The notes under the pieces: generated by a model
The model's input: the letters and a program-made list of their open reading frames with translations, nothing else
Database searches by the model: none
Told to the model about the DNA's origin: nothing
Position numbers and translations under genes: made by a program
DNA from: Scytonema sp. RU_4_4
Lineage (GTDB): Bacteria > Cyanobacteriota > Cyanobacteriia > Cyanobacteriales > Nostocaceae
Direction: 5' to 3'
DNA: 39,319 bases
Assembly (NCBI GenBank): GCA_012031965.1
Contig: JAAUSC010000046.1
Coordinates: 1-39,319 of the forward strand
Shown here: piece after piece, positions 11,254-38,872 of the stretch
Position numbering within the stretch: position 1 is the first letter of the stretch
Layout of the letters: the number at the start of each line of letters is the position of its first letter

Positions 11254-11262
11254 CGCTTATGA

Positions 11263-12975: not shown

Positions 12976-13061
12976 GACGGAATCTTTTTCTGAGGTAGGT
13001 TGAAACTTTGCTCTTTGTGGGCAACTCTTCCTCCCTGCATCTTTGTGTCAGAGTGTCAAGT

Positions 13062-13397: not shown

Positions 13398-13488
13398 TTT
13401 GTGTTCTGTCTCTACAAAAAAGGCTTATTCGGTAGAATTTCCTTCATCATTCTCTTGTTCCTTACACCTGGCGTCAAAAGACAGGTTG

Positions 13489-14547: not shown

Positions 14548-14573
14548 TAGTCATTGTTCATTAGTCATTAGTC
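14546..14573. repeat. Short tandem heptamer repeat (ATTAGTC type, 4 units)
   Basis: Four consecutive heptamers read ATTAGTC, ATTGTTC, ATTAGTC, ATTAGTC. They fill much of the 45-base gap between the binding-protein and permease genes and touch the permease start codon, so the array replaces the usual ribosome-binding region. Confidence 0.85.
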
Positions 14574-14592
14574 TCCTTGTCCCCTCAACCCA

Positions 14593-15621
14593 TCATTTAA
14601 ACCTCTCTGGGTACAAAGCCTCTGCTAATTGTCTCACTCCTGTGATATTCCGAATTCCTGGCATCGTGTAGCTGAAGCCCAAGACAATGAATTTATCTTG
14701 TTGCACTGCTTTTAGCTGGGAGTAAGCAGGGTTTGATTTAAGCAACCGCCGCTTCTCCTCAGCAGGTGACCAGCTAGCATCGATGAGAACAATCACATCG
14801 GGTTGACGTGCAATGACATCTTCCCAATTAACTCTCACCCATGCTTCTTTTTTCTGGATATCTTTGAAAATATTTTCTCCACCTGCTAGTTCAATGATGT
14901 GATTTGGCATTCCCCAGTTAGAGACAGTTAGAGGAGGGTCTTCGGAATCGTACCAAAATATACGCTTCTTGGTTGTCACCTTGCCTAGCTTTTGTTGAGT
15001 TTCTTGTAGTTGTGCTTGCAATTGAGCAATTAACTGCTGTGCCCGTTCTTCTACTCTAAAAATACGCCCAATATCCTTTATCTGCTGATATAAATTCTCC
15101 ATCGTGACACGTGATGGTCTAAGTTCTGGGCGATCGCATTCAATGGGCAGTAAATAAGAGGAAATACCTAATTTAACTAACTCTTCTCGTGAGCCAAGTG
15201 CTTCTTTGGCAAAAGCACTTTCTTCAGTGGTAAACACAAAATCCGGTTCAACCCCCAAAAAAACTTCCCGTGACGGGTACTTCGGCGCTAAAACTCGAAT
15301 TTGCGAATATGCCTGTTGATACTCCGGCAAAATCGGATTATCCAGGTAGGCTGTACCGACCATGTGCTTTTCTAAACCCAGCGCCAGCATGACCTCTGTT
15401 GCAGATTGCATCATCGTGACAGCGCGTTGTGGTGATTGTTTGTAGGTCATCGTCAGATCGCAGTTCTTAAGTGTGACTAGAGTGTATTTTGCTGCTTGTG
15501 AAGCAGTATTAGTTGATTGAACAACATTTCCCTCACACCCTGAAACCAGCATCAGCACTGCTAAGACTGCAATAAAAGGTTGATCTATCCAAATACAGTG
15601 ACGTAATTTACTCACACACAA
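14593..15621 (-). CDS. Iron-siderophore-type ABC substrate-binding lipoprotein
   Basis: 342 residues. A lipoprotein signal ends in the lipobox LVSG-C29. The mature part has the class III binding-protein layout: PQRAVTMMQSATEVMLALGLEKHMVG, LAPKYPSREVFLGVEPDFVFT, a long central helix (about 170-215, Gln-rich), then WGMPNHIIELAGGENIF and WEDVIARQPDVIVLID in the C-terminal lobe. Such proteins deliver ferric siderophores or cobalamin to the FecCD/BtuC permease. It lies 23 bases downstream of the TonB receptor gene and 45 upstream of the permease. The ligand cannot be read from sequence; the receptor next door suggests a ferric siderophore. Confidence 0.9.
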   Translation of the reverse strand: MCVSKLRHCIWIDQPFIAVLAVLMLVSGCEGNVVQSTNTASQAAKYTLVTLKNCDLTMTYKQSPQRAVTMMQSATEVMLALGLEKHMVGTAYLDNPILPEYQQAYSQIRVLAPKYPSREVFLGVEPDFVFTTEESAFAKEALGSREELVKLGISSYLLPIECDRPELRPSRVTMENLYQQIKDIGRIFRVEERAQQLIAQLQAQLQETQQKLGKVTTKKRIFWYDSEDPPLTVSNWGMPNHIIELAGGENIFKDIQKKEAWVRVNWEDVIARQPDVIVLIDASWSPAEEKRRLLKSNPAYSQLKAVQQDKFIVLGFSYTMPGIRNITGVRQLAEALYPERFK

Positions 15622-15644
15622 CTCTCGTTTGAATGCTTCGGGAA

Positions 15645-25500: not shown

Positions 25501-26701
25501 GTCTTCCCCGCCATTTATTCGCTTTTTTCTTCACCGCCTCACGGATCAGTCTTTTTATCTGACTTTTAGCTGCCATACTTCTATTCTTGATGGCTGGAGC
25601 AAAGCTTGTTTGCTGACAGAATTGCTACAGCATTATGATGCCTTGCTGAATGGTAAAGGTGAAGTCATTGAACCACCCCCAACTATTGCTTATCAAGATT
25701 TTGTCGCCTTAGAGCGTTCAACATTGCAATCGCCTGACTCTCAAGACTTTTGGACACAAAAATTGGCAGGTTGCGTCACCACAAAACTAGCCCGTTGGGC
25801 GGTGACTCACCGCACCACAGATACCCCGGAAATTGGCTTTTTAGATGTCCCCATCTCCCCTGAGCTTTCCAAGAAATTGCAGAAACTGGCACGTAGAGCA
25901 GAAGTCCCCCTCAAAAACGTCTTGCTAGCTGCACATGTGAGAGTGATGAGTTTGTTAAGTGGCGAAAGCGATGTCCTCACAGGACTGGAGTCTAACGGTC
26001 GATTGGAAGAGGCTGACGGAGAAAAAACCTTGGGAATCCATTTGAACACAGTTCCTTTGCGTCTGCAACTGACGGGGGGAACTTGGTTAGAGTTGGTGCA
26101 GCAGGTCTTTGCAGCTGAACGAGAATTGTTACCCTTTAGACGTTATCCCTACGCAGATTTACACCAACTTGTCGGTCGTCAGGCTCTCCAGCCCCTGGTG
26201 GAAACTGTCTTTAACTACACTCACTTTCATGTTTATGAGAGTTTGCAAGCTTTCAAAGATTTGGAAATTTTAGGGGCGAGGGGTTTTGGTGAAACTCATT
26301 TTACGTTGCGGTCTGAGTTTAATCTCAATCATGCCTCAGATTGCATACAACTCGATTTAGAGTGTGACTTGACACAGATTAGCCATGCCCAGTTAGAGAC
26401 TATTGGCAGTTATTTTATAGAAACGCTGACAGCAATGTCTGGACAGCCGTTTGCACGTTACGAGTCTCAATGTCTTTTGGGCGATCGCCAACGGCAAATG
26501 TTGCTTGTGGAGTGGAATAATACCGCCACCCAATATCCCCAATATTGCTCTATCCAGCAACACTTTGAGGCGACTGCTGCACAAAATCCTGATGCGATCG
26601 CCGTTGTCTTTGAAGATGAGCAACTCAGTTACCAACAGCTTAACCCTCTTCTGTCAGTCTGGGAAAAGAAAAATAAGAGCCAAATTTTCAACTGTAGATA
26701 G
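19544..26701 (+). CDS. Lipopeptide NRPS, 5' part: FAAL-ACP-C-A(Ser)-PCP-C-(A, truncated)
   Basis: Fatty-acid-loading synthetase of 2385 residues as it stands. Residues 1 to about 600 are a fatty acyl-AMP ligase (FLQYTSGSTGSPKGVMVSHGNL, GWLPLFHDMGLVG). An ACP follows with GLDSL (S652), then a condensation domain with HHIIADFWS (H861-H862, D866). The next adenylation domain has YTSGSTGKPKG near 1352; its code, aligned by eye to EntF, reads D-V-W-H-M-S-L-V-D, predicting serine. The PCP has GGDSIRS (S1808). A second condensation domain carries HTSILDG (H2011-T2012, D2016) in place of HHxxxDG. The protein then enters a second A domain (to QQLN) and is cut off by stops inside the 26640-26820 insertion. 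The ancestral protein would be about 2977 residues, continuing at 26822 in the same frame. An alternative start is the ATG at 19565. Confidence 0.92.
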   Translation: MISAGVQMGKNLFEQPARFSTLVEILQGRAFHQPKQKAYSFLLDSEEEESHITYGDLDFQAREIAALLQSCGVVSGERVLLLYPPGLEFIAAFFGCLYAGVVAVPAYPPRANQSLSRLQAIVADAQAVVALTTTTVLSKIERQFAQYPNLQILRFLATDNIIASKLVNTWQEPSVNSNTLAFLQYTSGSTGSPKGVMVSHGNLLHNELLIQQAMQHSTETLFVGWLPLFHDMGLVGNMLQPLYLGIPCILMSPVAFLQKPLRWLQAISRYKATTSGGPNFAYDLCVSKITPEQRATLDLSSWEVAFNGAEPVRAQTLERFATTFEACGFRREAFYPCYGMAETTLIVSGGFKAAPPVVLSVQQAALAQNQVVTAPSEEVGAHQTLVSCGQPLQDLQIVIVHPETGTRCGSHEVGEIWVKGPSVAVGYWNQTEQTEETFRAYLTDSGEGPFLRTGDLGFLHSGELFITGRLKDLIVIRGRNHYPQDIEWTLEQSHPALQKSGSAAFSIEVAGVERLVVADEVKRTSLRNLDIDEVIKAIRQAVVEEYELQVYAVLLLKTGSIPKTSSGKIQRYACRAGFLNGSLNIVGSSILEESYTSGSEVTLTREDLRALKPQERHLKLTFYLQELLAKVLKVAPSPLDFQQPLSTMGLDSLMAIELKNAIETNFGVVLPITSFFAGSNIDQLASEVLAQDTVSTFAQEMTLAPASEAVAENSLSHGQQALYFLHQLTPESPAYNIVAAAHLQGELDIAALRNAFQSLVERHPALRTTFTNLSGQPVQEIHEHLEICFEHENVSTWSEAFLNNRLVEEAHRPFNLEQGPLLRVSLFTRWSQGEPLKGRSPEGQTPKGVSPQEHTLLLVVHHIIADFWSGAVLMHELGILYQAHKASTRATLNSLALLYTDFVRTSKAMLASKEGERLWKYWHKQLAGELPVLNLPTDRPRPPIQTYTGASQSFWLNADLTQRLKTLSHAHGATLYMTMLAAFQVLLYRYTGQEDLLVGSPTTGRSRADLAGLVGYFVNPVVLRADLSGNPTFEAFLSQVRSTVLDAFAHQDYPFARLVEQLQPIRDPSRSPLFQVMFVLHKAHLQNQEGLAAFALGETGARIKLKELELESLALDKRVAQFDLTLMMAEVDGQLSGSWQYNTDLFDATTIARMAGHFQTLLEGIVADPQQHVSLLPLLTELERQQLLVEWNTTQVDYASDLCLHQQFAAQVEQTPDAVAVVFEQEQLTYTELNRRANQLAQYLQTLGVEPEVLVGIYLERSQEMVVSILATLKAGGAYVPLDPSYPQERLAFMLEDAQVSVLLTQEKFLTALPEHRAQVVLVDKNNEVWASESVNNPVSQVTTHNLAYVIYTSGSTGKPKGVMNTHRGICNRLSWMQENYQLTTVDRVLQKTPFSFDVSIWEFFWPLLTGARLVIARPGGHQDSAYLVKLIQKEQITTVHFVPSMLQVFLEEPGLETCHCLRQVMCSGEALPFKLQERFFARLDADLYNLYGPTEAAVDVTFWACERQSRKHIVPIGRPIANTQIYLLDSYLQPVPVGVPGELHIGGAALARGYLHQPDLTALKFIPNPFNNSKFKICPADTLRVNAVPPQEAQKNSKFNRLYKTGDLARYLPDGNIEYLGRLDDQVKLRGFRIELGEIETVLSQHPALRSVVILMREIERSEKHRNFTPLVDVENSSTITGLRRLLKGELAASGADSSNQQLVAYCVSHHQPAPTTTELRRFLLEQLPDYMVPAAFVMLDALPLTPNGKIDRRSLPVPSKARPELEKAFVAPRTLVEQALAEVWAEVLDIEQVGIHDNFFELGGDSIRSIQVLAKATAKGLSFSLAQIFQHQTIESLAQEITFVEPSGLVTRKTEPFSLISHTERQKLPEGVEDAYPLARVQAGVIFHSQSMPEEPIYHDIFLYNLQVRLDIQLFQACVQQVVERHAILRTSFDLTNFSEPLQLVHQQVTAPFQVEDLRDLSPYRQQEALSTWIKAEKRRNFDWSSPPFIRFFLHRLTDQSFYLTFSCHTSILDGWSKACLLTELLQHYDALLNGKGEVIEPPPTIAYQDFVALERSTLQSPDSQDFWTQKLAGCVTTKLARWAVTHRTTDTPEIGFLDVPISPELSKKLQKLARRAEVPLKNVLLAAHVRVMSLLSGESDVLTGLESNGRLEEADGEKTLGIHLNTVPLRLQLTGGTWLELVQQVFAAERELLPFRRYPYADLHQLVGRQALQPLVETVFNYTHFHVYESLQAFKDLEILGARGFGETHFTLRSEFNLNHASDCIQLDLECDLTQISHAQLETIGSYFIETLTAMSGQPFARYESQCLLGDRQRQMLLVEWNNTATQYPQYCSIQQHFEATAAQNPDAIAVVFEDEQLSYQQLNPLLSVWEKKNKSQIFNCR
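22036..22099 (+). repeat. In-frame palindromic repeat inside the first condensation domain
   Basis: The stretch contains GGGCGATCGCCC (22055-22066, an extended HIP1 palindrome) and ACGCCT-AA-AGGCGT (22076-22089). It encodes a low-complexity Gly/Pro/Lys segment (QGEPLKGRSPEGQTPKGVSPQ) just before the strand leading to LLLVVHHIIADF, where C domains usually have a short turn. It looks like a dispersed repeat absorbed without breaking the frame. Confidence 0.65.
24258..24343 (+). repeat. In-frame palindromic repeat inside the first A domain
   Basis: TCCTGCGGA (24280-24288) is inverted as TCCGCAGGA (24313-24321), with CTGCG/CGCAG inside, flanked on both sides by ATTCAAAATT-type repeats. It lies between IPNPF and RLYKTGDL. 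The sister A domains have only four to six residues there (SDEPNA, SEEPNA); here about 29 intervene, read in frame with no stop. Confidence 0.75.
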
Positions 26702-26820
26702 AGCGAGCATTTGAGCGTTTATTTTCGTTCCAGAATGGCTGAAATCAAGATTTTTGGTAAAAGTCTTATGCTGGAAGCATCCCAGATTATTCTCTTCCGA
26801 AAGTGATAAAAGAGGGTTAA
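26640..26820. mobile_element. MITE-like element interrupting the NRPS gene
   Basis: An insertion adds 177 bases within the codons for Q-L-N of an A domain. Its ends are imperfect inverted repeats, TTAACCCTCTTCTGTCA against TTAACCCTCTTTTATCA on the complement (two mismatches in 17). TTAA (or its core TA) is found at both junctions (26640-26643 and 26817-26820). Removing 177 bases rejoins CAGCTTAATCATCGAGCG, reading Q-L-N-H-R-A, the conserved A1-A2 linker. There is no transposase. A TA or TTAA target would fit elements mobilised by IS630/Tc1-mariner or IS5-type transposases. Being 59 codons long it keeps the frame but introduces stops (TAG at 26699). Confidence 0.88.
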
Positions 26821-26848
26821 TCATCGAGCGAATGCCCTTGCCCGTTAC

Positions 26849-28654
26849 TTGCAGCGTCTAGGAGTAGGTCCCGATTTGCCGGTGGCTCTCTGTGTCGAGC
26901 GTTCCCTGGAGATGATAGTAGGAATTTTGGGAATTCTCAAGGCAGGAGGAGCTTACTTACCCTTAGACCCAACATATCCCCCAGAAAACCTGGCTTTTAT
27001 GCTGGAAGATGCTCAGGTTCCAGTCCTGCTGACTCAGGCACGGCTAGTAGCAGACTTACCTGCACACACCGCCCAGACTGTCTGTCTAGACTCAGACTGG
27101 CACATCATAGCGCAGGAGAGTCCAGAAAAACCCTGCAGTACAAGCACATTAGAGAATCTAGCCTACATTATTTACACCTCAGGTTCCACAGGTCAACCAA
27201 AGGGAGTACTCGTTACCCAACAAAACTTAGTCCATTCCACCCTAGCGCGGATTGCTTATTACTCAAAACCCGTTACCAGTTTCTTATTAATTCCCTCCTT
27301 TGCTTTTGATAGTTCAGTCGCCTGCATATTTTGGACATTGTGTCAAGGCAGTACACTAGTGCTGTTCCAAGAGGGTTCCCAGAGAGATATTTGGCAATTA
27401 ACCAAGCTGATTGTCCAACATCAGGTTTCACACTGGTTGAGTGTTCCTTCACTCTACAGCACCCTACTTGATACTATAGACCCGGATCTACTTGTCTCGT
27501 TGCACACTGTCATTGTTGCCGGGGAATCTTGTGCAACAGAGTTAGTGGAACGTCATCGTCAGCTATTGCCCCATACATCTTTATTTAATGAGTATGGCCC
27601 CACAGAAGCAACGGTTTGGAGCAGTGTCTACAATTGTCAAAATCATGATTTGAAAAATTCTGTTCCGATTGGTCGTCCAATTGCCAACACCCAGATTTAT
27701 TTACTGGATTCTCACCTCCAACCAGTACCAATTGGTGTACCGGGTGAGGTGTACATTGGTGGTCTCGGTCTGGCTAGGGGCTATCTTAACCGACCTGAGC
27801 TAACTGCCCAAAAGTTCATAGCCAATCCGTTTAGCGAAGAACCGAACGCACGCCTGTACAAAACTGGAGATTTAGGACGTTACCTTCCAGACGGTAACAT
27901 TGAATTTCTAGGACGCATTGACCATCAAGTCAAGCTCAGGGGATATCGTATTGAACTAACGGCGATAGAAGCGATTCTACAACAACATCCTGTTGTTCGA
28001 GAAGCGGTTGTCACACTTAGGGAAGAAGAGTCAGGTAGCAAACGCTTAGTTGCCTACGTAGTGCCACAGCAAAAACCAGCACCTGCAACCAATGAGTTGC
28101 GGAGTTTCTTGCGGCAGAAGTTACCGGAATATATGATTCCTAATGCCTTTGTCATCTTAGAAGAATTGCCGTTGACTCCTAGTGGCAAAGTTGATCGCCA
28201 AAGTTTGCCAGCATCTGAGCAGGTAAAATCTCAACCAGAAATGCTGGTGCAGGAAGAAAGCACAGCAGAGCAAACTAACTACGTAGCACCCCGCACAGTA
28301 GTAGAAGAGGCGCTAGCCACAATCTGGAGTCAGGTTTTGGGAATTAAGCTCTTGGGTATCCACGACAACTTTTTAGAGTTGGGAGGTGATTCGATTCAGA
28401 GTATTCAGGTTGTGGCTAAAGCTTATGAAGCGGGGTTGAAATTCAGTATCAATCAGCTATTTGAACATCTGACAATTGCAGAATTAGCAATGGTAGTGGA
28501 GACAATTTCGGTTTCACAACAAGAAGAGCGATCGCCCACAGCGCCAATCACTCATTTTTCGTCCATCGACACGCCAAGCTTCACACCTTCAGACTTTCCA
28601 GAAGCTGAGTTAACTCAGGAAGAACTAAATAAGCTGTTGAGGAACAATACCTAA
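26849..28654 (+). CDS. Lipopeptide NRPS, 3' part: A (N-truncated)-PCP of module 2
   Basis: Continuation of the interrupted synthetase in the same frame. Homology resumes at 26822 (H-R-A-N-A-L-A-R), and the nominal start at 26849 is only a TTG within that homology, so this is probably not an independent gene. It contains the A domain from LGVGPDLPVALCVERS through YTSGSTGQPKG, FAFDSSVACIFW, NEYGPTEATVW, LYKTGDLGRYL and LTPSGKVDRQSLP. A PCP with LGGDSIQSIQVV and a short linker tail (LTQEELNKLL) follow. The code read by eye is D-S-A-L-I-A-E-V-W; I cannot assign the residue. The tail likely docks to the next synthetase, whose ATG is 22 bases on. Without its first about 50 residues the A domain is unlikely to be active. 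Confidence 0.85.
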   Translation: MQRLGVGPDLPVALCVERSLEMIVGILGILKAGGAYLPLDPTYPPENLAFMLEDAQVPVLLTQARLVADLPAHTAQTVCLDSDWHIIAQESPEKPCSTSTLENLAYIIYTSGSTGQPKGVLVTQQNLVHSTLARIAYYSKPVTSFLLIPSFAFDSSVACIFWTLCQGSTLVLFQEGSQRDIWQLTKLIVQHQVSHWLSVPSLYSTLLDTIDPDLLVSLHTVIVAGESCATELVERHRQLLPHTSLFNEYGPTEATVWSSVYNCQNHDLKNSVPIGRPIANTQIYLLDSHLQPVPIGVPGEVYIGGLGLARGYLNRPELTAQKFIANPFSEEPNARLYKTGDLGRYLPDGNIEFLGRIDHQVKLRGYRIELTAIEAILQQHPVVREAVVTLREEESGSKRLVAYVVPQQKPAPATNELRSFLRQKLPEYMIPNAFVILEELPLTPSGKVDRQSLPASEQVKSQPEMLVQEESTAEQTNYVAPRTVVEEALATIWSQVLGIKLLGIHDNFLELGGDSIQSIQVVAKAYEAGLKFSINQLFEHLTIAELAMVVETISVSQQEERSPTAPITHFSSIDTPSFTPSDFPEAELTQEELNKLLRNNT

Positions 28655-28676
28655 AACTAACTAGAAATCCCCAGGT

Positions 28677-31600
28677 ATGGAAGCTAAAAATATACAGGAT
28701 ATCTACACACTTTCACTTACCCAACAGGGTATGCTGTTTCACATCCTCTCTGCTCCAGATTCCAGGATGTATTTTGAGCAGACGCTATGTACCTTGCACG
28801 GGACTCTCAATATCGCAGCTTTTGAGCAGGCTTGGCAGCAAATAGTAGACCGACATCCGAGTTTGAGAACAGGTTTTGTATGGCAAGGTCTGAATCAACC
28901 AGTTCAAATAGTACACCGACAAGCTAAACTATTGATACAGCAGTATGATTGGCGTAAGCTCTCAACTGCTGAGCAGGAAGCGCAACTACAAAGTTACCTG
29001 GAAGCAGACCGCAAACATGGCTTTGAGCTTGCAAAACCATCCTTGATGCGGCTCATTTTAATCCAGACTGATGTGGACACTTACCAATTTATCTGGAGTA
29101 TTTGTCACTTGGTACTGGATGCCTGGTGTGTTAACACCATCCTCAAGGAATTTTTCTCCTTCTACGAAGCACTTTGCCAAAACCAAATTCTCCAGTTGCA
29201 ACCAAGCCGTCCCTATCGGGACTACATCACTTGGCTAAAGCAGCAGGATTTATCAGAGGCTGAGGTATTTTGGCGAAAAGTTCTTCAGGGCTTCACAACA
29301 CCAACTCCTTTAGTAGCAGACTGGATAACCAATGGCTCCTCTAGTCAGCACCAAGGTTTCAGTCAACAACAAGTCCAGCTGTCGCTAGCAACCACAGAAG
29401 CACTGAAATCTTTAGCGCAACAACATCATTTGACGCTGAACACCTTGGTACAAGGGGTTTGGGCTTTGTTGTTAAGTTATTACAGCGGTGAAGCAGATGT
29501 AGTTTACGGAACCGTTGTGTCTGGTCGTCCGCCCACCCTACCAAAGGTTTCCTCTATGGTGGGACTCTTTATCAACACCCTACCGATGCGTGTACTCGTG
29601 TCTGGTGAAGCTTCGCTCCTGTCTTGGCTAAAGGAACTTCAGTCCCAGCAGCTGAGTATACGTAAATATGAGTGTACTCCTTTAGTCCAAATCCAGAATT
29701 GGAGTGAAGTACCTACAGGGATGCCTTTGTTTGAGAGTATTTTGGTCTTTGAAAACTCCTCGGTCAATATTTCTAGCTTACCTACAGGAAACTTGAGGAT
29801 TGACAATGTTCGCTCTGTTATCAACTCTAACTATCCTCTTGTTTTCTTAGTTAAACCTTGGTCGCAGTTATCGTTGAATATATTTTATGACTTACGCCAC
29901 TTCAGTACCATGATGGTAGCTAGAATGCTAAGTCATGTTGCAGCGCTACTAAATAATATAGTTGCCGATCCCAACACTACACTGCTAGCTCTGACGCAGA
30001 GTATTGTTAACAATCCAGAACAATTGATGAGTGATGTCGAGCGACAACAACTGCTCGTTGAATTTAACAATACAAGAAGAGATTATGTTAACGACAAGTG
30101 TATCCACAAATTAATCGAGGAACAGGCAGAACGTACCCCGGAAAAAGTAGCTGTGGTGTTTCACCAGCAGCAACTCACTTACCAAGAACTGAACACCAGA
30201 GCCAATCAGCTAGCACACCATCTTCAGGCTTTGGGAGTTGGACCGGATGTATTAGTGGCGATTTGCGTAGAACGCTCTTGGGAAATGTTGGTAGGTATAC
30301 TAGGTATTCTCAAAGCTGGAGGAGCGTATGTACCAATTGATCCAACTTATCCAAATCAGCGACTGGTTTATATGCTGGAAAATTCTCAGGTGTCAGTAAT
30401 CTTGACCCAAGAGCAGTTGGTGAAAAAGTTACCTGATATTGAGGCGCAAGTACTTTGCTTAGAGACTCTTTGGGATGCAATAGCCCAAGAAAGTGATGAG
30501 AATCCTAAAACAGAAGTAATTCCTGATAACCTGGCTTACTTAATTTATACTTCTGGATCTACAGGACAACCCAAAGGAGTGCAGGTTACGCATCAAAACT
30601 TAGTTCACTCCACAACTGCTCGCATCTGTTACTACGATCAACCTGTAACAGGCTTTCTGTTAACTTCACCTTTTGCTTTCGATAGTTCTGTTGCTTGCAT
30701 TTTTTTGACAATTTGTCAAGGGGGTTTTGTTTCTGTTTTACCAGAAAATTGGCAACTAGATATTAAACAGGTTATAGAGGCGATCGCTCAACAACAAATT
30801 TCCCATTTATTATGTCTGCCATCTCTCTACAAGCTGATTTTAGAGCAAGCCCAACCACAGCAACTAGTTAGCCTGCAAACCGTAATTGTAGCTGGAGAAT
30901 CCTGTCCAAAAGAGCTTGTTAAGCAACACCGTGAATTACTACCCCAGACATCTTTATTTAATGAGTACGGTCCAACAGAAGCAACAGTTTGGAGCAGTGT
31001 CTACAATTGTCAAAACCATGATTTAAACAATCCTGTGCCCATTGGTCGCCCAATTGCTAACACCCAGATATATTTACTAGATTCTCACCTCCAACCAGTA
31101 CCAATTGGTGTATCGGGAGAGATATACATCGGTGGTCTAGGTGTGGCGCGGGGTTATCTCCACCGTCCAGAACTAACTGCCCAAAAGTTTATTCCCAATC
31201 CGTTTAGCGATGAACCAAACGCACGCCTCTACAAAACTGGGGATTTAGGGCGTTACCTTCCAGACGGGAACATTAAGTTTCTCGGTCGTCTCGATCAACA
31301 GGTCAAGATTCGAGGGTATCGCATTGAGCTAACTGAAATTGAAGCTGTTCTCAATCAACACACAGCTGTGCAAGAAGCGATAGTCGTCGCCCAAGAAGAT
31401 ATCCACGCTAATCGGCGTTTAGTCGCTTATATTGTCCCAGCAAAGGAGCAAGTACCCACAGTTGATGTCCTGCGTAGCTTCTTAAAAAATTGCTTGCCAG
31501 AGTATATGCTGCCTTCAGTGTTCGTGATGTTAAAAGCGCTACCACTCACTCCCAATGGCAAGGTAGATCGTCAAGCGCTTCCCGTTCCCGACCAGGAAAG

Positions 31601-33140
31601 ACCAAATCTCGAAGAAGCATTTGTCCCACCTAGTACCCCGGTCGAAGTAGCACTGGCAGAGATTTGGTCACAAGTTCTTGGTGTAGAACAAGTGGGCATT
31701 CACGACAACTTCTTTAAGTTAGGGGGTCATTCCTTGCTGGTTACTAAGCTGGTATTGCGAGTGCGAGAAACTTTCCAAGTAGAACTTCCCTTACGCAGTC
31801 TGTTTGAGATGCCTACCATAGCAAGCTTAGCCAAGAATCTTGAGATTGCTCAAAAGACAGGAGCTTCTACTATTGGTACAAAAACTGTTGCGGATCTACA
31901 GACTGAAGCTGTCCTTGACCCCACAATTCGTCCAGAGGTTATAGCCATCGAGTGTACGACTGAGCCTGATCACATCTTCCTAACAGGAGCCACAGGCTTT
32001 TTGGGAGCTTTTTTACTTTATGAGCTTCTTCAGCAAACCCAAGCGGATATCTATTGTCTGGTACGTTCGCCTAATGCCGAAGAAGGCAAAAAAAGAATTC
32101 AAAGCAGCCTTGAATCTTATTTACTCTGGGATGAATCTCTAAGCCCCAGAATTATACCAGTTGTGGGAGACCTGTCTCAGCCGCTTTTAGGTCTTTGTGA
32201 GGAACAGTTTCGAGCAATGGCTGAGTTACTCGATGTCATTTATCACAATGGAGCATGGGTTCATCATACTTCTCCTTACTCTGTACTGAAGGCAGCCAAT
32301 GTTCTGGGAACGCAAGAAGTTTTGAGATTGGCAAGTCAAACTAAAGTCAAGCCTGTGCATTTCATTTCTACCATTAGCGTTTTCTCCTCAGTTGGTCATT
32401 CTGGAGTTAAAGTCGTTCGAGAACAGGACAGTCTTGATGATTACCAAGTACCAGGGGGTGGCTATTCCCAGAGTAAATGGGTTGCCGAAAAGTTAGTAAC
32501 TATTGCGCGTGATCGAGGTATTCCTGCTTGTATCTATAGGCTGGGACGTGTATCAGGGCATAGCCAAACCGGTGTCTCTAATAGAAATGACTTTTTGTAT
32601 CGACTGATAATAGGTTGTATCCAGCTTGGATGTATGCCAGAAGTGGAGATGATTGAGGATATGGCTCCTGTGGATTATATCAGCAGAGCTATTATCCATT
32701 TATCGAGGCAACAAGAATCTCTAGGAAAAGCTTTTCACTTAGTTAATCCCCAGTCTTTCAACTTAAGTATGTTGAGCAACTTAATCTGCTCGTCTGGTTA
32801 CTCTCTTAAACAAATTCCTTATGACCAGTGGCAATTAGAACTGCTTAGAATTGCTCAACGAGAGCCAGAACATCTCTTGTATCCGCTGGTGCCGTTTTTG
32901 CTGACCAAGGAATCTCAAGAGAAAATTCCAAACTCAGCAGTACTACAGTTTGACTGTCAAAATACACTCAATGGGTTTATAGACACCTCTATTGTCTGTC
33001 CACCAGTAGATGAGCAGTTACTTCGTACTTACTTTTCATCTCTAATTCTTAGCGGCTTTATTGAGGCTCAGCAGCTGAGTAAGAAGTCGGAAAGTTCCTC
33101 TGAAAAAACACTTGGATTTACTTCCAAGCAAAGCACCTAA
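28677..33140 (+). CDS. NRPS termination module: C-A-PCP-thioester reductase
   Basis: 1487 residues. The C domain starts YTLSLTQQGMLFH; its active-site motif is CHLVLDA (C143, H144, D148, A149), which keeps the second His and the Asp but changes the first His and the Gly. The A domain has YTSGSTGQPKG, FAFDSSVACIF, IVAGESC and NEYGPTEATVW, giving the code D-S-A-L-I-A-E-V-W, the same as module 2. The PCP has LGGHSLLV (S1019). The C-terminal short-chain-dehydrogenase-like thioester reductase has the NAD(P)H loop TGATGFLG (about 1103-1110) and catalytic Y1263-x3-K1267 (GYSQSKWVAEKL). There is no thioesterase, so the peptide is released reductively as an aldehyde or alcohol. The next gene, an aminotransferase, could convert an aldehyde to an amine. 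Confidence 0.94.
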   Translation: MEAKNIQDIYTLSLTQQGMLFHILSAPDSRMYFEQTLCTLHGTLNIAAFEQAWQQIVDRHPSLRTGFVWQGLNQPVQIVHRQAKLLIQQYDWRKLSTAEQEAQLQSYLEADRKHGFELAKPSLMRLILIQTDVDTYQFIWSICHLVLDAWCVNTILKEFFSFYEALCQNQILQLQPSRPYRDYITWLKQQDLSEAEVFWRKVLQGFTTPTPLVADWITNGSSSQHQGFSQQQVQLSLATTEALKSLAQQHHLTLNTLVQGVWALLLSYYSGEADVVYGTVVSGRPPTLPKVSSMVGLFINTLPMRVLVSGEASLLSWLKELQSQQLSIRKYECTPLVQIQNWSEVPTGMPLFESILVFENSSVNISSLPTGNLRIDNVRSVINSNYPLVFLVKPWSQLSLNIFYDLRHFSTMMVARMLSHVAALLNNIVADPNTTLLALTQSIVNNPEQLMSDVERQQLLVEFNNTRRDYVNDKCIHKLIEEQAERTPEKVAVVFHQQQLTYQELNTRANQLAHHLQALGVGPDVLVAICVERSWEMLVGILGILKAGGAYVPIDPTYPNQRLVYMLENSQVSVILTQEQLVKKLPDIEAQVLCLETLWDAIAQESDENPKTEVIPDNLAYLIYTSGSTGQPKGVQVTHQNLVHSTTARICYYDQPVTGFLLTSPFAFDSSVACIFLTICQGGFVSVLPENWQLDIKQVIEAIAQQQISHLLCLPSLYKLILEQAQPQQLVSLQTVIVAGESCPKELVKQHRELLPQTSLFNEYGPTEATVWSSVYNCQNHDLNNPVPIGRPIANTQIYLLDSHLQPVPIGVSGEIYIGGLGVARGYLHRPELTAQKFIPNPFSDEPNARLYKTGDLGRYLPDGNIKFLGRLDQQVKIRGYRIELTEIEAVLNQHTAVQEAIVVAQEDIHANRRLVAYIVPAKEQVPTVDVLRSFLKNCLPEYMLPSVFVMLKALPLTPNGKVDRQALPVPDQERPNLEEAFVPPSTPVEVALAEIWSQVLGVEQVGIHDNFFKLGGHSLLVTKLVLRVRETFQVELPLRSLFEMPTIASLAKNLEIAQKTGASTIGTKTVADLQTEAVLDPTIRPEVIAIECTTEPDHIFLTGATGFLGAFLLYELLQQTQADIYCLVRSPNAEEGKKRIQSSLESYLLWDESLSPRIIPVVGDLSQPLLGLCEEQFRAMAELLDVIYHNGAWVHHTSPYSVLKAANVLGTQEVLRLASQTKVKPVHFISTISVFSSVGHSGVKVVREQDSLDDYQVPGGGYSQSKWVAEKLVTIARDRGIPACIYRLGRVSGHSQTGVSNRNDFLYRLIIGCIQLGCMPEVEMIEDMAPVDYISRAIIHLSRQQESLGKAFHLVNPQSFNLSMLSNLICSSGYSLKQIPYDQWQLELLRIAQREPEHLLYPLVPFLLTKESQEKIPNSAVLQFDCQNTLNGFIDTSIVCPPVDEQLLRTYFSSLILSGFIEAQQLSKKSESSSEKTLGFTSKQST

Positions 33141-33276: not shown

Positions 33277-34683
33277 ATGAACAGAACTCTCATAAATGAA
33301 GAAACAGCTAACTTACAACAGAGGTATTTAGAAGCGTTTATTGAACGCTACACCAAGCGTACCAAAACCTCAAAACAACTTACACAAACTTACCGTCCAG
33401 TTTTAGCAAATAGCCGAGCTTCATTCGGGTTCCGTTTGTCCATCAAGGAAATACTCTATCCCATCATTGGCAAGCAAGCACAAGGTTCGCGAATGTGGGA
33501 TGTTGATGGTAACGAATATATAGATCTAGGAGGGTTTGGGGTGAATCTCTTTGGGAATAATCCTCCCTTTATTAAGGAAGCTTTGGCAGCGCAACTTGAG
33601 CAAGGAATACAGATTAGTCCCCAGGCAGAATTTGCTGGTGAGGTTGCTTCGTTAATCTGTGAACTGACGGGAATGGAGCGGGTCACTTTTCTTAATTCAG
33701 GCACAGAAGCCGTAATGACAGCATTACGACTAGCCCGTTCCGCCACAAATCGCTACAAAATTGCTCTCTTCTCAGGGTCTTATCATGGTCATTCTGATGG
33801 CACGCTTGTGATAGCGCACAAAGGCGAAGAAAATCCGCGTGCGGTACCTCTTGCTCGGGGCATATCGCCAAATATTGCTGAAGATGTGTTGGTACTAGAT
33901 TATGGTAATTTTGAGTCACTTGAGGTAATCAAAGCTTATGCATCCGAACTGGCAGCGGTTCTGGTTGAACCTGTACAAAGTCGCCGACCTGAGTTACAGC
34001 CCCAAGCATTTCTCCAACAATTGAGGCAACTGACTCAAGAATCCGGGATAGCATTAATTTTTGACGAAATGGTGACAGGATTCCGCATTCATCCAGGAGG
34101 AGCGCAAGCATGGTTTGGTGTTGAAGCCGATCTCGCAACCTATGGAAAGATTATTGGTGGTGGAATGCCGATTGGTGTGGTTGCTGGTAAGGCGACTTAT
34201 ATGGATGGGGTTGACGGTGGTATGTGGAATTATGGGGATGAATCCTACCCTCAAGCGAAAACGACATTTGTTGCAGGTACTTTCTGCCAGCACCCGCTCG
34301 CTATGGCAGCAGCACGAGTTGTCCTACAGCATCTCAGAAGTCAGGGAGCTGGACTACAGCAGCAGTTGAACCAACGTACTTCGCAGTTCGTTGAAACCCT
34401 AAATACTTACTTTGAAGCCAAAAAAGTGCCTTTCCGAGTTGCTAATTTTGGCTCGCTTTTTGGTCCTGTGCTTTTGAGAAACGCTACCTCAAATCATTCT
34501 ACTGTTTCAGAAAATATTGACTTGCTACTCTATCATCTGCTCGCTAAGGGAATCTATTTACGAGGAGGGTGTTTTCTATCTACAGCCCATACCGATGAGG
34601 ATATTGACCGTATCATTCATGCCATCAAGGATAGCGTAGAGGAAATGCAAGAGGGAGGTTTCTTGGTAGATTCCCATTCCTAA
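33277..34683 (+). CDS. Class III PLP aminotransferase (GSA-aminotransferase/MxcL-like)
   Basis: 468 residues of the fold-type I, class III aminotransferase family. Landmarks are MWDVDGNEYIDLGGFGVNLFG, NSGTEAVMTALRLAR (cofactor phosphate binding), SYHGHSDG, LIFDEMVTGFR (Asp that contacts the pyridine N) and the Schiff-base lysine K291 in TYGKIIGGGMPIG. It resembles glutamate-1-semialdehyde aminotransferase and the aminotransferase domains of NRPS/PKS lines rather than ornithine or acetylornithine enzymes. Coming 136 bases after a reductase-ended NRPS, the likeliest job is transamination of the released peptide aldehyde, as MxcL does for myxochelin. An alternative is amination of phosphonopyruvate made by the nearby PEP mutase. 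It is unlikely to be the housekeeping hemL given this context. Confidence 0.85.
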   Translation: MNRTLINEETANLQQRYLEAFIERYTKRTKTSKQLTQTYRPVLANSRASFGFRLSIKEILYPIIGKQAQGSRMWDVDGNEYIDLGGFGVNLFGNNPPFIKEALAAQLEQGIQISPQAEFAGEVASLICELTGMERVTFLNSGTEAVMTALRLARSATNRYKIALFSGSYHGHSDGTLVIAHKGEENPRAVPLARGISPNIAEDVLVLDYGNFESLEVIKAYASELAAVLVEPVQSRRPELQPQAFLQQLRQLTQESGIALIFDEMVTGFRIHPGGAQAWFGVEADLATYGKIIGGGMPIGVVAGKATYMDGVDGGMWNYGDESYPQAKTTFVAGTFCQHPLAMAAARVVLQHLRSQGAGLQQQLNQRTSQFVETLNTYFEAKKVPFRVANFGSLFGPVLLRNATSNHSTVSENIDLLLYHLLAKGIYLRGGCFLSTAHTDEDIDRIIHAIKDSVEEMQEGGFLVDSHS

Positions 34684-34814
34684 CTTCGTTTTTCTCTCTT
34701 GATCGTACTGATGACTGAAACTTTAGCGAGTATCAAGATGAAAGTATGCAAGCGATCGCCGCTTGTGTATCTCATTTATAGCTGTTTGTTCATGAGCCAC
34801 TGTCGGTTAACAAT

Positions 34815-36119
34815 ATGGCGCAATGCAAGGCGCATCGTAGAATGCGAATCTTCATCCTGATCTGGTTTGGGCAGCTTGTCTCACTGATTGGTTCTGGGCT
34901 GACTCGATTTGCTTTAGGTGTCTGGGTATACCAGAATACTGGGTCAGTCACGCAATTTGCGCTCATTTCTTTGTTCGCTATGCTGCCAAGCATCTTGATG
35001 TCACCGTTGGTTGGTGTGCTTGTAGATCGCTGGAACCGACGCTCTTGTATGATACTCAGCGATGCAGGGGCAGGACTGAGTACGCTGGCTATTGCACTGT
35101 TGCTCTTGGTTAGTAAGCTTGAAGTCTGGCATATCTACCTGGCTGTAGCAGTCAGTTCGACCTTTAGCGCTTTCCAGTGGCCAGCCTATGCTGCTGCAAC
35201 TACGATGCTTGTCCCAAAGCAACACCTTGGTCGTGCCAATGGCATGGTGCAACTTGCAGAAGCAGCTTCACGGCTGCTCTCACCAATGTTAGCAGGTGCG
35301 CTGGTTGTCACTATTGAGATTCAGGGCGTAATCCTGATCGACTGCGTTACTTTCCTCTTTTCTTTAGTAACGCTGCTACTCGTCCGATTTCCTAAGCCGA
35401 AAACTACCGCAGAGGATAAAGTGAAGCAGGGTTGGCGACTGCAGGAGTTTACTTATGGGTGGACATACATCACTGCTCGACCCGGACTACTCGGATTGTT
35501 GATTTTCTTTGCTGCCATTAATTTCCTAATCGGAGTTGTCAGCGTGCTAGTTACACCATTGGTGCTAGCCTTTGCTGCAGCTACTGTACTTGGCACTGTG
35601 CTGTCCATTGGTGGAAGCGGGATGTTGGTTGGCTCTCTAGTGATGAGCGCTTGGGGTGGTCCAAAGAACCGTATCCGTGGTGTGTTCAGCTTCACCCTAT
35701 TAGGTGGACTGTCCATACTACTTGCTGGGCTTATGCCTTCTGTTCCGGTCTTCTTTGCAGCTGCTTTCATATACTATTTTGGGGTGTCAATTATCAATGG
35801 CTGCGACCAAGCCATCTGGCAGAGCAAAGTCGCATCTGCTGTGCAAGGACGGGTGTTTGCCGTGCGGAGTATGCTTGCCTTGGCATCCCTACCGCTTGCC
35901 TATCTGATTGCAGGACCATTAGTCGATCAAGTCTTCGAGCCGTTGCTTGCTGTCTCTGGACTATTGGCTGGAAGCATAGGACGGATTATCGGTGTGGGAC
36001 GAGGACATGGCATTGCCCTGTTGTTTGTTGTGATGGGAATGCTCACTATGCTAGCAACAGCTGGGGGCTATTTATATCTACCTCTACGGCGACTAGAGGA
36101 GCAACTGCCGGATATGTAA
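34815..36119 (+). CDS. MFS exporter (MFS_3/EntS-like)
   Basis: 434 residues with about 12 hydrophobic helices. The loop 2-3 motif appears as PLVGVLVDRWNRRSCMILSD, and the VPKQHLGRANGMVQLAEAASRLLSPMLAGAL block is typical of the MFS_3 group that includes the enterobactin exporter EntS. Such genes regularly close cyanobacterial NRPS clusters, where they are thought to export the product. It follows the aminotransferase by 131 bases on the same strand. Either the ATG at 34815 or the one at 34842 (MRIFILIWFG) could be the start. The segment SIGRIIGVGRGHG between the last helices is slightly longer than usual but in frame. Confidence 0.9.
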   Translation: MAQCKAHRRMRIFILIWFGQLVSLIGSGLTRFALGVWVYQNTGSVTQFALISLFAMLPSILMSPLVGVLVDRWNRRSCMILSDAGAGLSTLAIALLLLVSKLEVWHIYLAVAVSSTFSAFQWPAYAAATTMLVPKQHLGRANGMVQLAEAASRLLSPMLAGALVVTIEIQGVILIDCVTFLFSLVTLLLVRFPKPKTTAEDKVKQGWRLQEFTYGWTYITARPGLLGLLIFFAAINFLIGVVSVLVTPLVLAFAAATVLGTVLSIGGSGMLVGSLVMSAWGGPKNRIRGVFSFTLLGGLSILLAGLMPSVPVFFAAAFIYYFGVSIINGCDQAIWQSKVASAVQGRVFAVRSMLALASLPLAYLIAGPLVDQVFEPLLAVSGLLAGSIGRIIGVGRGHGIALLFVVMGMLTMLATAGGYLYLPLRRLEEQLPDM

Positions 36120-36176
36120 TATCAAGTCCGGTTGATTTAGTTATGATTCGGAGAATCTGCTGCCACAGCCCGGTAG

Positions 36177-36329
36177 ACCTTGCTGAAGCAGTCTGTACTC
36201 CCACTAGTGGATGAGTTAAGGTTAGCAGAACTGCAAAATGATTTAGGTGCAGACGCCCAAGCAGTCATCTTTCCCACCGTTCCACCTGTGAATGCTGCGA
36301 TGTCACCCATAAGTTTATCAATTGATTAA
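36177..36329 (+). pseudogene. Possible gene remnant between MFS and phosphonate genes
   Basis: The frame open after a stop at 36174 encodes about 50 residues including LPLVDELRLAELQNDLGADAQAVIFPTVPPVNAAM. It has coding-like composition but no good start codon or recognisable family. It may be the 3' end of a lost gene. Confidence is low. Confidence 0.3.
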
Positions 36330-36439
36330 GAATTAATTAATAAATATTGTATTTAGCAAGACATTGCTGGTATAAAATTCAGGAAATCCGTAAGAATTTC
36401 CGGATTTCTTGGTGTCTTAGCTGTGTTGGTAACTTAACG

Positions 36440-37216
36440 ATGAAGGCAATGATATTAGCTGCTGGCGTTGGACGACGCTTGGGAAAAGACGGGCAAGTCC
36501 AACCCAAAAGCTTGCTGAGATTTAACGGCAAATCTCTCCTGGAACGCCATTTGGATTATCTTCGTGATTGCCAGATTGACGAAGTGGTCATTGCTGTTGG
36601 TTACCAGGCTGAAATGATCGAGGATGAAATCAAAGCGTTGGGAGCCGAAAATTGGGTCAGGACTGTTTACAATCCTAACTACACCAAAGGCAGTCTTGTT
36701 AGCCTTTGGACGTTACGGGAATATCTCACCGCAGGCGATGACCTGTTATTAATGGATGCAGATGTTTTATGCGATCGCCGCATCCTAGAGCGATTGGTAA
36801 AGACAGACATACGCAACTGCTTTCTACTAGATCGAGATTTTGAACCGGGAGAAGAACCAGTTAAGCTTTGTGTGCAAGACGGTTATCTAGTGGAGTTTCG
36901 CAAACAAGTTGCGGCGAATCTTGCTTATGATTTTGCAGGCGAATCTGTAGGGTTCTTTCGCTTTGAGAGTGCGTTAGCGCAAAGCGCGGCTCCCTTTGGG
37001 AGCATCGCCCGCCGTCTTGCTTCTCGCATAGAGTACTACGTCACCGCCGGACTGCATGAAGAACCGTATGAGGAAGCAATTCGAGATTTGCTGTTGGAAA
37101 CTCCGGAAGCATTTGGGTACGAAGACATCACAGGTTTACCCTGGATTGAAATCGATTTTCCCGAGGATATTAAACGCGCCCAAAACGAGATCCTACCTCT
37201 TTTAGGAGGAGTATAA
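36440..37216 (+). CDS. LicC-like nucleotidyltransferase (phosphocholine/phosphonate cytidylyltransferase type)
   Basis: 258 residues from the ATG at 36440; the frame is open to 36347 but that leader is not family-like. The nucleotide-binding loop MKAMILAAGVGRRLGKDGQVQPKSLLRFNGKSLLERHLD fits the L-A-A-G-x-G-x-R...PK-x-L signature. The metal-binding Asp lies in LLMDADVLCDRR, and the C-terminal GLPWIEIDFPEDIKRAQ block is typical of the family. Such enzymes make CDP-choline, NDP-sugars or CMP-phosphonates. Its TAA abuts the ATG of the PEP mutase gene, so the two are translationally coupled, and activation of a phosphonate is the natural inference. A short palindromic repeat sits in frame at about 36970-37010. 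Confidence 0.85.
   Translation: MKAMILAAGVGRRLGKDGQVQPKSLLRFNGKSLLERHLDYLRDCQIDEVVIAVGYQAEMIEDEIKALGAENWVRTVYNPNYTKGSLVSLWTLREYLTAGDDLLLMDADVLCDRRILERLVKTDIRNCFLLDRDFEPGEEPVKLCVQDGYLVEFRKQVAANLAYDFAGESVGFFRFESALAQSAAPFGSIARRLASRIEYYVTAGLHEEPYEEAIRDLLLETPEAFGYEDITGLPWIEIDFPEDIKRAQNEILPLLGGV
36970..37010 (+). repeat. In-frame palindromic repeat in the nucleotidyltransferase gene
   Basis: GCTCCC-TTT-GGGAGC (36989-37003), preceded by GCGTTAGCGCAAAGCGC, encodes ALAQSAAPFGSIA between GFFRFES and RRLASRIEYYV. It looks like a dispersed cyanobacterial repeat that added about 12 residues without a frameshift. Confidence 0.6.
37204..37209 (+). promoter_or_regulatory. Strong ribosome binding site of the PEP mutase gene
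   Basis: AGGAGG sits 7 bases before the ATG at 37217 and inside the last codons of the upstream gene, supporting coupled translation. Confidence 0.8.
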
Positions 37217-38872
37217 ATGTACCAAATATCTGCACCTGTTGTCAGAGATTCAAAACCAAGCAAGTGTGCTCAGTTGCGGGAGTTACTCGAATCGCCTCAA
37301 CTCGAATTTATTATGGAGGCACACAATGGTATTAGCGCCCGCATCGTGGAAGAGGCTGGATTTAAAGGAATTTGGGCAAGTGGACTTGCTGTTTCTGCTC
37401 AATATGGCGTACGAGACAATAATGAAGCCAGTTGGACTCAAATTGTGGAAATGCTGGAGTTCATGTCCGATATTACCCAGATTCCTATTCTGTTAGATGG
37501 GGATACGGGTTATGGCAACTTCAATAATATGCGTCGTCTAGTCAGGAAGCTAGAACAGCGAGGTATTGCGGGAGTCTGCATTGAAGATAAGCTTTTCCCA
37601 AAGACCAATAGTTTTATTAATGGCGATCGCCAACCTTTGGCTGATATCGATGAATTCTGCGGCAAAATCAAAGCAGGCAAGGATAGTCAACAAGATCCAG
37701 ATTTCTGTATCGTTGCCCGTGTCGAAGCTTTGATTGCGGGTTGGGATCTATCGGAGGCATTACAGCGAGCTGCATTATACCACGCATCTGGAGCAGACGC
37801 AATCCTGATTCACAGCAAATTATCTCGTCCTGACCAAGTGCTAGAGTTTGCTAAAGAGTGGGCGGGTCGTTGTCCTTTGGTCATCGTGCCAACAAAATAT
37901 TACAGCACCCCAACCGATGTCTTTCGCAAAGCCGGGATTAGTTTGGTTATCTGGGCAAACCACATGATTCGAGCTGCTGTTGCGAGTATGCAGGCGATCG
38001 CCCGCGAAGTTCAAAGCCAAGAAACTCTGATCAATATTGAAGACGATATTGCTCCAGTCAAGGAAATTTTCCGACTACAGGGAGCAGATGAACTGCAAGA
38101 GGCGGAAAAACGCTACTTTACCAATGGACGCCACCATACTCAGGCGATCGTTCTTGCTGCAACCAGAGGACAAGAATTTGCTGGGTTGACTCAAGATAAA
38201 CCCAAAGTCATGTTACCTCTTGGAGGGAAACCCCTGCTCAGGCATTTGGTAGACAAATTCAAAAAACTTGCCATCAACGATATTACCGTTGTTGCGGGTT
38301 ACAAAGCAGAAACTATCAATGTTCCGGGGACTAAAGTTATCCGTAACTCAGAGTATGAAACGACGGGAGAATTAGCATCTTTAGCGTGTTCCCAAGCCAG
38401 CTTTAGCGACGATATGCTGGTGGTTTACGGCGATTTACTTTTCAGAAGCTACATTTTGCGAGATTTATTAGATTGTCCCGGAGAAATTGTTGCTGTGGTC
38501 GATTCTGCTATGAATAGTAAGTCATTTAGTGGTTCTCCTGACTATGCTTATTGCTCAATAACAGACGACCTTTCCCTGTTTGGACAGGATGTCAACCTTT
38601 TGCACATCTCCAAAGCAACGCAAACGGAGTGGGGACAATCCTGTGGACGGTGGATTGGGATGCTAAAATTCCGAAGCCAAGGCAGACAGTGGTTGGATGA
38701 AGCACTTGGTGAGTTACAAACAAGACCAGATTTTAACCGCTTAGGTATGCCAGAATTATGTAATTACTTAATTGAGCAAGGGAAACCAATTAAAGTTCTT
38801 TATATTCGCGGTAACTGGCTAGATATCAACTCTTTGGACGACCTTGATCTCGCTTTTCAGTTGAAAAAATAA
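37217..38872 (+). CDS. Phosphoenolpyruvate mutase fused to a nucleotidyltransferase domain
   Basis: 551 residues, two enzymes in one chain. Residues 1 to about 290 are PEP mutase, which rearranges PEP to phosphonopyruvate and forms the C-P bond. The diagnostic E-D-K-x5-N-S is [10 protein letters not shown] (E123-S132), and the metal site is [10 protein letters not shown] (D94, D96). Isocitrate-lyase-family hydrolases lack this EDK...NS loop. Residues about 308-551 are a nucleotidyltransferase ([16 protein letters not shown], then [45 protein letters not shown]). The usual AAG is AAT here, a variation I associate with this fusion type. Fosfomycin Fom1 joins the same activities in the opposite order. 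No phosphonopyruvate decarboxylase is present to pull the unfavourable equilibrium. Confidence 0.93.

Follow-up and report, generated by a model that had tools for sequence, protein, structure and literature searches.

A PEP mutase fusion at the end of a contig

The window analyzed here is the whole of contig C217 of Scytonema sp. RU_4_4, 39319 nt in length, and toward its right end lie the genes of a candidate phosphonate module, preceded by a nonribosomal peptide synthetase (NRPS) cluster. The central gene of the module (37217-38872, + strand) encodes a 551-residue phosphoenolpyruvate (PEP) mutase, PepM, fused to a MobA/PntC-like nucleotidyltransferase. Immediately before it lies the gene for a second nucleotidyltransferase (36440-37216, + strand; 258 residues from an internal ATG, the longest open reading frame (ORF) starting from TTG 36347). 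A first-pass annotation, made from the sequence letters, had described both proteins, together with the terminal thioester reductase of the NRPS, the class III aminotransferase and major facilitator superfamily (MFS) exporter that lie between the NRPS and the second nucleotidyltransferase, all on one strand, and the distance of about 3.3 kb from the end of the NRPS (33140) to the ATG of that nucleotidyltransferase. All of these observations hold. The annotation also left two competing interpretations of the arrangement, a single module making a phosphonate lipopeptide, and a phosphonate lipid or glycan pathway that merely neighbors the NRPS.

The mutase domain matches TIGR02320 at 400 bits, above the cut-off of 319.55. 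The solved Mytilus mutase (1M1B) aligns with residues 12-301 over the whole domain, at 430 bits, and the alignment includes the aspartate that reads alanine in entry 1s2u. The EDKXXXXXNS motif is found at residues 123-132, and the D94/D96 pair picked out in the first-pass annotation lies within DGDTGYGN. The C-terminal part of the fusion matches PF12804 (53 bits), as does the second nucleotidyltransferase (62 bits). Among solved structures, the fused domain scores 21 bits with PntC (6pd1), 34 with LicC and, higher, 40 with a sugar nucleotidyltransferase (2ggo), and the best relatives of the second protein are LicC (1jyk, 41 bits), 7d72 (36.3 bits) and PntC (6pd1, 36 bits). The relatedness of both proteins to LicC and PntC is read from PF12804, which is over its cut-off in each, and from the presence of 1jyk and 6pd1 among the matches, where they are not always the best. 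Another candidate PEP mutase, a 302-residue PF13714 protein on contig C289 (186 bits, 30% identity to the window mutase), was rejected; matches that strong occur in many of the 217 genomes of the window's family, which suggests an ordinary member of the protein family.

Ppd and the AEP aminotransferase are encoded on a second contig

The first-pass annotation considered the usual decarboxylase to be absent, and suggested that the nearby aminotransferase might pull the mutase reaction. We reject a missing decarboxylase, as its apparent absence is an effect of the assembly edge. C217 stops at 39319, only 447 nt past the PepM gene, and the search for ppd elsewhere in the genome that the annotation had recommended finds phosphonopyruvate decarboxylase (Ppd) on contig C7 (nt 178-1365; TIGR03297, 432 bits, cut-off 312.5). 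There it is followed by a 2-aminoethylphosphonate (AEP) aminotransferase (AEPT; TIGR03301, 425 bits, cut-off 360.8) and then, on the other strand, by hpnH (548 bits, cut-off 225) and hpnA (476 bits, cut-off 367.65). The genome therefore contains pepM, ppd and the AEPT gene, spread over two contigs. With Ppd and AEPT on C7, we likewise reject a coupling role on phosphonopyruvate for the class III aminotransferase; this enzyme travels with the NRPS island, stands beside the NRPS in two further genomes, and among solved structures is closest to the mycosubtilin synthase aminotransferase. Beyond the hopanoid genes of this contig (G000:C7; L146, 10627-14734) lie bacterial Pnkp and Hen1 RNA-repair genes.

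For comparison, a scan of genome contigs returned 486 relatives of the PepM fusion, and the best 80 of these, 34 cyanobacterial loci and 46 others (nearly all gammaproteobacterial or proteobacterial metagenome-assembled genomes (MAGs) by title), were queried with the proteins of the window and with the genes of the relatives. At least 3.5 kb is available upstream of PepM in 66 of the 80 loci, and at least 8 kb in 53. Hopanoid and other neighbors were counted as the best non-overlapping tblastn match at E ≤ 1e-12, and the genes of the NRPS island at E ≤ 1e-10. Ppd is present in 74 of the 80 relatives and, where at least 6.5 kb is available downstream, in 25 of 26 cyanobacterial loci and 29 of 29 others. 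The order nucleotidyltransferase, PepM-nucleotidyltransferase fusion, Ppd, AEPT recurs in both cyanobacteria and gammaproteobacteria, which is more than chance would give. Because Ppd and AEPT come after the mutase in these relatives, we infer a contig break inside the operon, with C217 probably running into C7 just past it.

The upstream half of the operon and its split

In one relative, L043 (Nostocales HT-58-2), the operon is continuous, and reads ABC transporter, HpnI, B12 radical S-adenosylmethionine (SAM) protein, CDP-alcohol phosphotransferase, PhyH dioxygenase, nucleotidyltransferase, PepM fusion, Ppd and AEPT. The window matches this locus at about 85% nucleotide identity in two separate blocks, 5871-11253 and 36309-38872, and nothing between these blocks was reported as matching. 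The first block holds the ABC transporter (5871-7514, - strand; PF00005, PF00664), a recurring upstream neighbor in cyanobacterial relatives, followed on the + strand by an HpnI-type hopanoid glycosyltransferase (7698-8900; TIGR03472, 356 bits, cut-off 310), a B12-binding radical SAM protein with DUF4070 (8924-10564; PF02310, PF04055, PF13282), and the CDP-alcohol phosphotransferase (10498-11181; PF01066, 59 bits), with the motif DxxDGxxARx8GxxxDxxxD at residue 90. Next comes what is left of a PhyH-type dioxygenase, roughly its first 20 codons (11196-11258, + strand; tblastn, 21 residues at 81%), the full-length gene being present in L043 and in L042. The match to L043 ends at 11253, within the dioxygenase gene, and from 11254 to 36308 a segment of about 25 kb, the inserted island with its flanks, stands in place of 891 nt of L043 (8975-9865). 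The CDP-alcohol phosphotransferase and PepM thus lie on opposite sides of the island. In cyanobacterial loci with at least 6 kb upstream, the phosphotransferase is found upstream of PepM in 21 of 26. Most likely, a lipopeptide island landed inside the operon and displaced most of the PhyH dioxygenase gene.

The B12 radical SAM protein carries the three domains that characterize HpnP as well as HpnP-like proteins, for which PF02310, PF04055 and PF13282 are described together in PMC10697835. No NCBIfam model scores over its cut-off with this protein, the weak best match being a PhpK-type P-methyltransferase (80 bits, cut-off 600), and it is matched in 17 of the 34 cyanobacterial loci.

Other DNA is also found inside the operon in relatives. 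In one Brasilonema locus (L042, 5586-9883) it lies between the dioxygenase and the nucleotidyltransferase and again between PepM and Ppd, and in another (L041, 2842-7449) it lies between PepM and Ppd, with a partial second Ppd match at 3961-4131. The phosphonate operon seems to be a frequent landing site. In a second gammaproteobacterial layout (L097), two protein kinases with cyclic-nucleotide-binding domains are found upstream of the cassette, at 4703-5995 and 8500-9801.

Such a break raises the question of whether the operon still works in this strain, as 25 kb now splits it, the dioxygenase is truncated, and no other dioxygenase copy was found in the genome (in a search that had no positive control); loss of that enzyme could block the end product. 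At the same time, the reading frames of PepM, both nucleotidyltransferases, Ppd, AEPT and the CDP-alcohol phosphotransferase are all open. The dioxygenase is moreover a variable part of the operon, found by tblastn in the available flanks of just 2 of the 34 cyanobacterial loci, so that the core may not need it. We therefore think it rather unlikely that the operon is non-functional here.

The NRPS island

The inserted island carries uptake genes on the - strand (13489-18257), for a FecCD permease, a periplasmic binding protein and a TonB-dependent receptor (PF01032, PF01497 and PF00593/PF07715). On the + strand are the NRPS (19544-33140), the class III aminotransferase (33277-34683; PF00202) and the MFS exporter (34815-36119; PF07690). 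The NRPS is encoded in three ORFs, with a fatty acyl-AMP ligase (FAAL)-like AMP ligase, condensation-adenylation-peptidyl carrier protein (C-A-PCP) modules and the terminal thioester reductase (TIGR01746, 364 bits, cut-off 213). The closest solved structure to the aminotransferase is that of the mycosubtilin synthase aminotransferase (498 bits), the next kind being glutamate-1-semialdehyde (GSA) aminomutase (208 bits). A 172-nt repeat separates NRPS ORFs 1 and 2 (26646-26817); it has 10 matches in the genome, 5 of them exact full-length copies including this one.

From 13497 to 36113, permease, binding protein, TonB receptor, NRPS, aminotransferase and MFS exporter are colinear in two genomes of other genera, G143 and G076. 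The uptake genes keep their place relative to the NRPS in both, copies of the aminotransferase at 95-96% stand beside the NRPS, and homology stops at 36113. The remainder of the inserted segment on the left, 11254-13496, is not common to these genomes, and the 172-nt repeat is not at this point in either, both being continuous here. In G143 the island is on contig C17 and the PepM fusion on C125, and G076 has the island and no PepM fusion. By these sequence comparisons, the aminotransferase and exporter belong to the NRPS island and not to the phosphonate pathway, and the island is an independent lipopeptide cluster. Its product is probably a metallophore, because uptake genes are linked to the NRPS.

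Seen from the side of PepM, the linkage disappears as well. Matches to the aminotransferase, MFS exporter, reductase domain, NRPS1, TonB receptor, binding protein and permease were found in none of the 80 PepM loci, and NRPS2/NRPS3 matched in one (L085, 23-25% identity over about 315 residues, 4e-15). The first-pass annotation had held that constant linkage in relatives would favor one pathway, and that relatives in which the PepM pair adjoins glycan or lipid genes and the NRPS is missing would speak against it. Linkage to the NRPS is not constant among the 80 loci, and what we find instead are relatives in which the PepM pair stands without it, with hopanoid genes and CDP-alcohol phosphotransferases as common neighbors.

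One group of relatives in the window's family nonetheless deserves mention. Five type-2 PepM fusions, 53-56% identical, are accompanied by matches to Ppd and AEPT, which in L154 are partial, and by none of the 11 hopanoid families. Type-2 fusions in two genomes bear on a joint pathway, in which the NRPS product would be decorated with or built from a phosphonate, since relatives of the window's MFS exporter (51-53%) lie near them, within about 1.5 kb in G060 and also in G059. The latter genome additionally has a FAAL and a stand-alone thioester reductase near its type-2 fusion (L154, 8271-11126; L155, 3973-9004). We rejected G059 as a second case of an NRPS beside PepM; the exporter aside, its neighbors match nothing of the NRPS but the FAAL and the reductase, and Ppd and AEPT are matched there in part only. 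Beyond these genomes, a joint pathway has in its favor the shared strand and the 3.3 kb distance in this genome, and the match of L085 to part of the NRPS. Against it stand the 80 loci, where the aminotransferase, exporter, reductase and TonB receptor never accompany a close fusion, and the occurrence of the island elsewhere with no PepM beside it. We thus regard a joint pathway as barely credible. The adjacency of NRPS and PepM looks accidental, and the NRPS is, on this comparison, outside the phosphonate pathway.

Association with hopanoid genes

Any of 11 hopanoid families is found in the flanks of 36 of the 46 non-cyanobacterial loci and 14 of the 34 cyanobacterial ones. Where 6.5 kb or more is available downstream, HpnH is found in 27 of the 29 non-cyanobacterial loci and in 8 of the 26 from cyanobacteria. 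In the gammaproteobacterial locus L074 the cassette lies inside a hopanoid cluster, whose order is squalene-hopene cyclase, HpnG, dioxygenase, HpnN, HpnA, HpnL, nucleotidyltransferase, PepM fusion, Ppd, AEPT, dxs (opposite strand), HpnH, HpnB, HpnM and MlaA; HpnG (184.2 bits, cut-off 187.1) falls slightly below its cut-off, as does MlaA. The opposite-strand dxs between AEPT and HpnH (L074, 14006-15898) is itself a recurring neighbor, with a match in 33 of the 46 non-cyanobacterial loci.

The association extends from neighborhoods to genomes. HpnH was counted in 50 carrier genomes, those of the 46 non-cyanobacterial loci and of 4 cyanobacterial ones, and is found in 49, in 48 of them over the cut-off, the miss being the genome of L076, a Methylomirabilota MAG. 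A second count used a sample of 274 genomes, evenly drawn from the class of G588, in which 36 genomes have HpnH and 19 a PepM relative (E ≤ 1e-60); the two lists cover the same genomes wherever both are shown. HpnH is present in 16 of 17 close carriers (at least 59% identity) and in 20 of the 257 other genomes (Fisher p = 3.7e-15, uncorrected for relatedness), where the 59% line was set after the list was viewed and all 19 PepM matches give 16 of 19. G588, on which the sample is centered, carries the fusion too, and the 80 loci already included 6 of the 17 close carriers. G823 is the close carrier that lacks HpnH.

Within the window's family, by a hand count, HpnH occurs in 45 of 46 carriers and 132 of 171 other genomes (p = 0.0005), the 46 carriers including four type-2-only genomes and one partial match (G112). 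The carrier with no HpnH is G108, which is 72% complete. The association is weak here because HpnH is common in the family.

Apparently different histories of the cassette and HpnH

In an HpnH tree, 15 cyanobacterial sequences, 9 linked to the cassette and 6 from fusion-free genomes, form one group against 28 from gammaproteobacteria, and within the cyanobacterial group the linked and unlinked sequences are intermixed. In the PepM tree, cyanobacterial and gammaproteobacterial groups are not firmly separated (support 37, 42). Distances of five proteins were compared under one model across a common set of 25 loci, 7 of them cyanobacterial and 18 gammaproteobacterial. Dividing the mean between-group distance by the mean within gammaproteobacteria gives 3.66 for HpnH, against 0.98 (PepM), 0.84 (nucleotidyltransferase), 1.01 (Ppd) and 0.97 (AEPT) for the cassette proteins. 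On these ratios, the cassette would seem to have passed between cyanobacteria and gammaproteobacteria without HpnH, and it adjoins native hopanoid genes in both. The simplest reading is that cassette and hopanoid genes share a function, though co-regulation of membrane-lipid genes would explain the adjacency too. L096 is titled as a Klebsiella pneumoniae MAG; in the PepM tree it falls among other gammaproteobacterial MAGs, it has an HpnA match, and its title looks wrong.

Discussion

Overall, we consider it very likely that the module belongs to a phosphonate lipid pathway that has been interrupted by an unrelated NRPS island. In the proposed pathway, PepM would convert PEP to phosphonopyruvate, Ppd would decarboxylate this to phosphonoacetaldehyde and thereby make the mutase step irreversible, AEPT would form AEP, and one or both nucleotidyltransferases would turn AEP into CMP-AEP. 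The CDP-alcohol phosphotransferase, a kind of enzyme that can hand a group to a lipid alcohol, would then transfer the phosphonate from CMP-AEP onto a membrane lipid alcohol. Activation of AEP with CTP is described for nucleotidyltransferases fused to PepM or encoded near it (PMC6697681; this and the other papers are cited for the parts of them that were available). Of the parts of an AEP phosphonolipid cluster, the CDP-alcohol phosphotransferase is present here, and the PhyH dioxygenase, a variable rather than a defining component, survives as about 20 codons. Of the two interpretations in the first-pass annotation, the phosphonate-lipopeptide module is left unsupported, and a phosphonate lipid pathway that merely neighbors the NRPS is retained.

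Several observations weigh against this account. PepM is on C217, and Ppd and AEPT are on a separate contig. Two cyanobacterial loci, L070 (10 kb downstream) and L073 (5.3 kb downstream), have no Ppd match. Outside cyanobacteria, where 6 kb or more is available upstream, just 12 of 32 loci have the CDP-alcohol phosphotransferase there, and the scanned upstream ORFs of L097 do not include one. None of the 11 hopanoid families is found in the available flanks of 20 of the 34 cyanobacterial loci, nor is a hopanoid gene nearby in the gammaproteobacterial loci L084 and L118, with about 10 kb on each side, although the genomes of both do contain HpnH. The co-occurrence of HpnH with the fusion is counted without correction for relatedness. 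Finally, the type-2-only carriers of the window's family (G005, G014, G019, G060) also have HpnH, so that HpnH alone is not specific there.

Which lipid would accept the phosphonate is a separate question. One bold and tentative possibility, to which we give somewhat less than an even chance, is that the acceptor is a hopanoid and that the cassette makes phosphonate-headed hopanoids, such as AEP esterified to bacteriohopanepolyol. CDP-alcohol phosphotransferases commonly use diacylglycerol, and the product might instead be an ordinary glycerolipid, with AEP replacing phosphoethanolamine on diacylglycerol and hopanoid genes adjoining since both remodel the same membrane; we take this as a serious contender, about as probable as the hopanoid. 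A phosphonolipid has been proposed for a homologous Nostoc cluster (PMC5987646). A glycerolipid does not itself predict that carriers nearly always have HpnH (49 of 50, and 16 of 17 close ones compared with 20 of 257 other genomes), or that the cassette stands beside native hopanoid genes in two phyla. A phosphonoglycan, in which CMP-AEP decorates a surface polysaccharide or lipid A, we judge very unlikely, as CDP-alcohol phosphotransferases are lipid-type enzymes and both glycosyltransferases assigned over their cut-offs are hopanoid ones. In its favor, HpnI and HpnB are glycosyltransferases, and PntC-type enzymes have been tied to surface tailoring (PMC6697681).

Regardless of the acceptor, recognizing the neighborhood as accidental removes the false lead of a phosphonate lipopeptide, and the useful result is that one PepM fusion family is strongly associated with hopanoid biosynthesis in two phyla. 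If phosphonate-headed hopanoids are indeed made, they would be a new type of membrane lipid, and geochemists would have a further lipid-bound reservoir of reduced phosphorus to consider. They would also offer a candidate role for hpnA, hpnB and hpnL, hopanoid-associated genes whose function is still unassigned (PMC12583986). In a literature search that covered most hits by title and the opening of the abstract, and left out preprints and most subscription journals, we found no report of a phosphonate-headed hopanoid beyond a suggestion of a terpene-phosphonate (PMC8776678), and the available parts of PMC9765116, PMC8692599 and PMC12858407 make no link between phosphonates and hopanoids.

Comparison with known systems

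The island, as distinct from the phosphonate genes, resembles the cluster for cyanochelin B, a FAAL-NRPS lipopeptide siderophore described in 2025 (PMC12628792), in its FAAL start, NRPS, thioester reductase and siderophore setting. Unlike that cluster as described in the available text, it has no aspartate hydroxylase among the scanned ORFs.

The phosphonate genes are close in content to the phosphonolipid gene cluster of a lichen-associated Nostoc, for which a phosphonate lipid was proposed in 2018 (PMC5987646), and which likewise has CDP-alcohol phosphotransferase, NTP transferase, pepM, ppd and AEPT genes. Here, unlike there, an NRPS island splits the operon, the dioxygenase is a remnant and hopanoid genes are adjacent; the available text of that report does not contain the word hopanoid, and its figure legend names hpnL. 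The fusion itself belongs to a familiar kind, as PepM-PF12804 is the commonest fusion in a 2019 inventory (PMC6697681), where PepM with the EDKXXXXXNS motif is joined to a PF12804 domain and CMP activation of AEP is described. It differs from the PntC of that work in that the fused domain resembles solved PntC weakly and that a separate second nucleotidyltransferase is present.

A link between hopanoid and phosphonate genes has one precedent in the material available to us, an antiSMASH survey from 2021 in which shc and pepM are linked in Roseomonas (Acetobacteraceae) and the authors suggest an undiscovered terpene-phosphonate (PMC8776678). The loci described here share with it the linkage of a squalene-hopene cyclase gene to pepM, and differ in lying in cyanobacteria and gammaproteobacteria and in coming with counts of HpnH co-occurrence.

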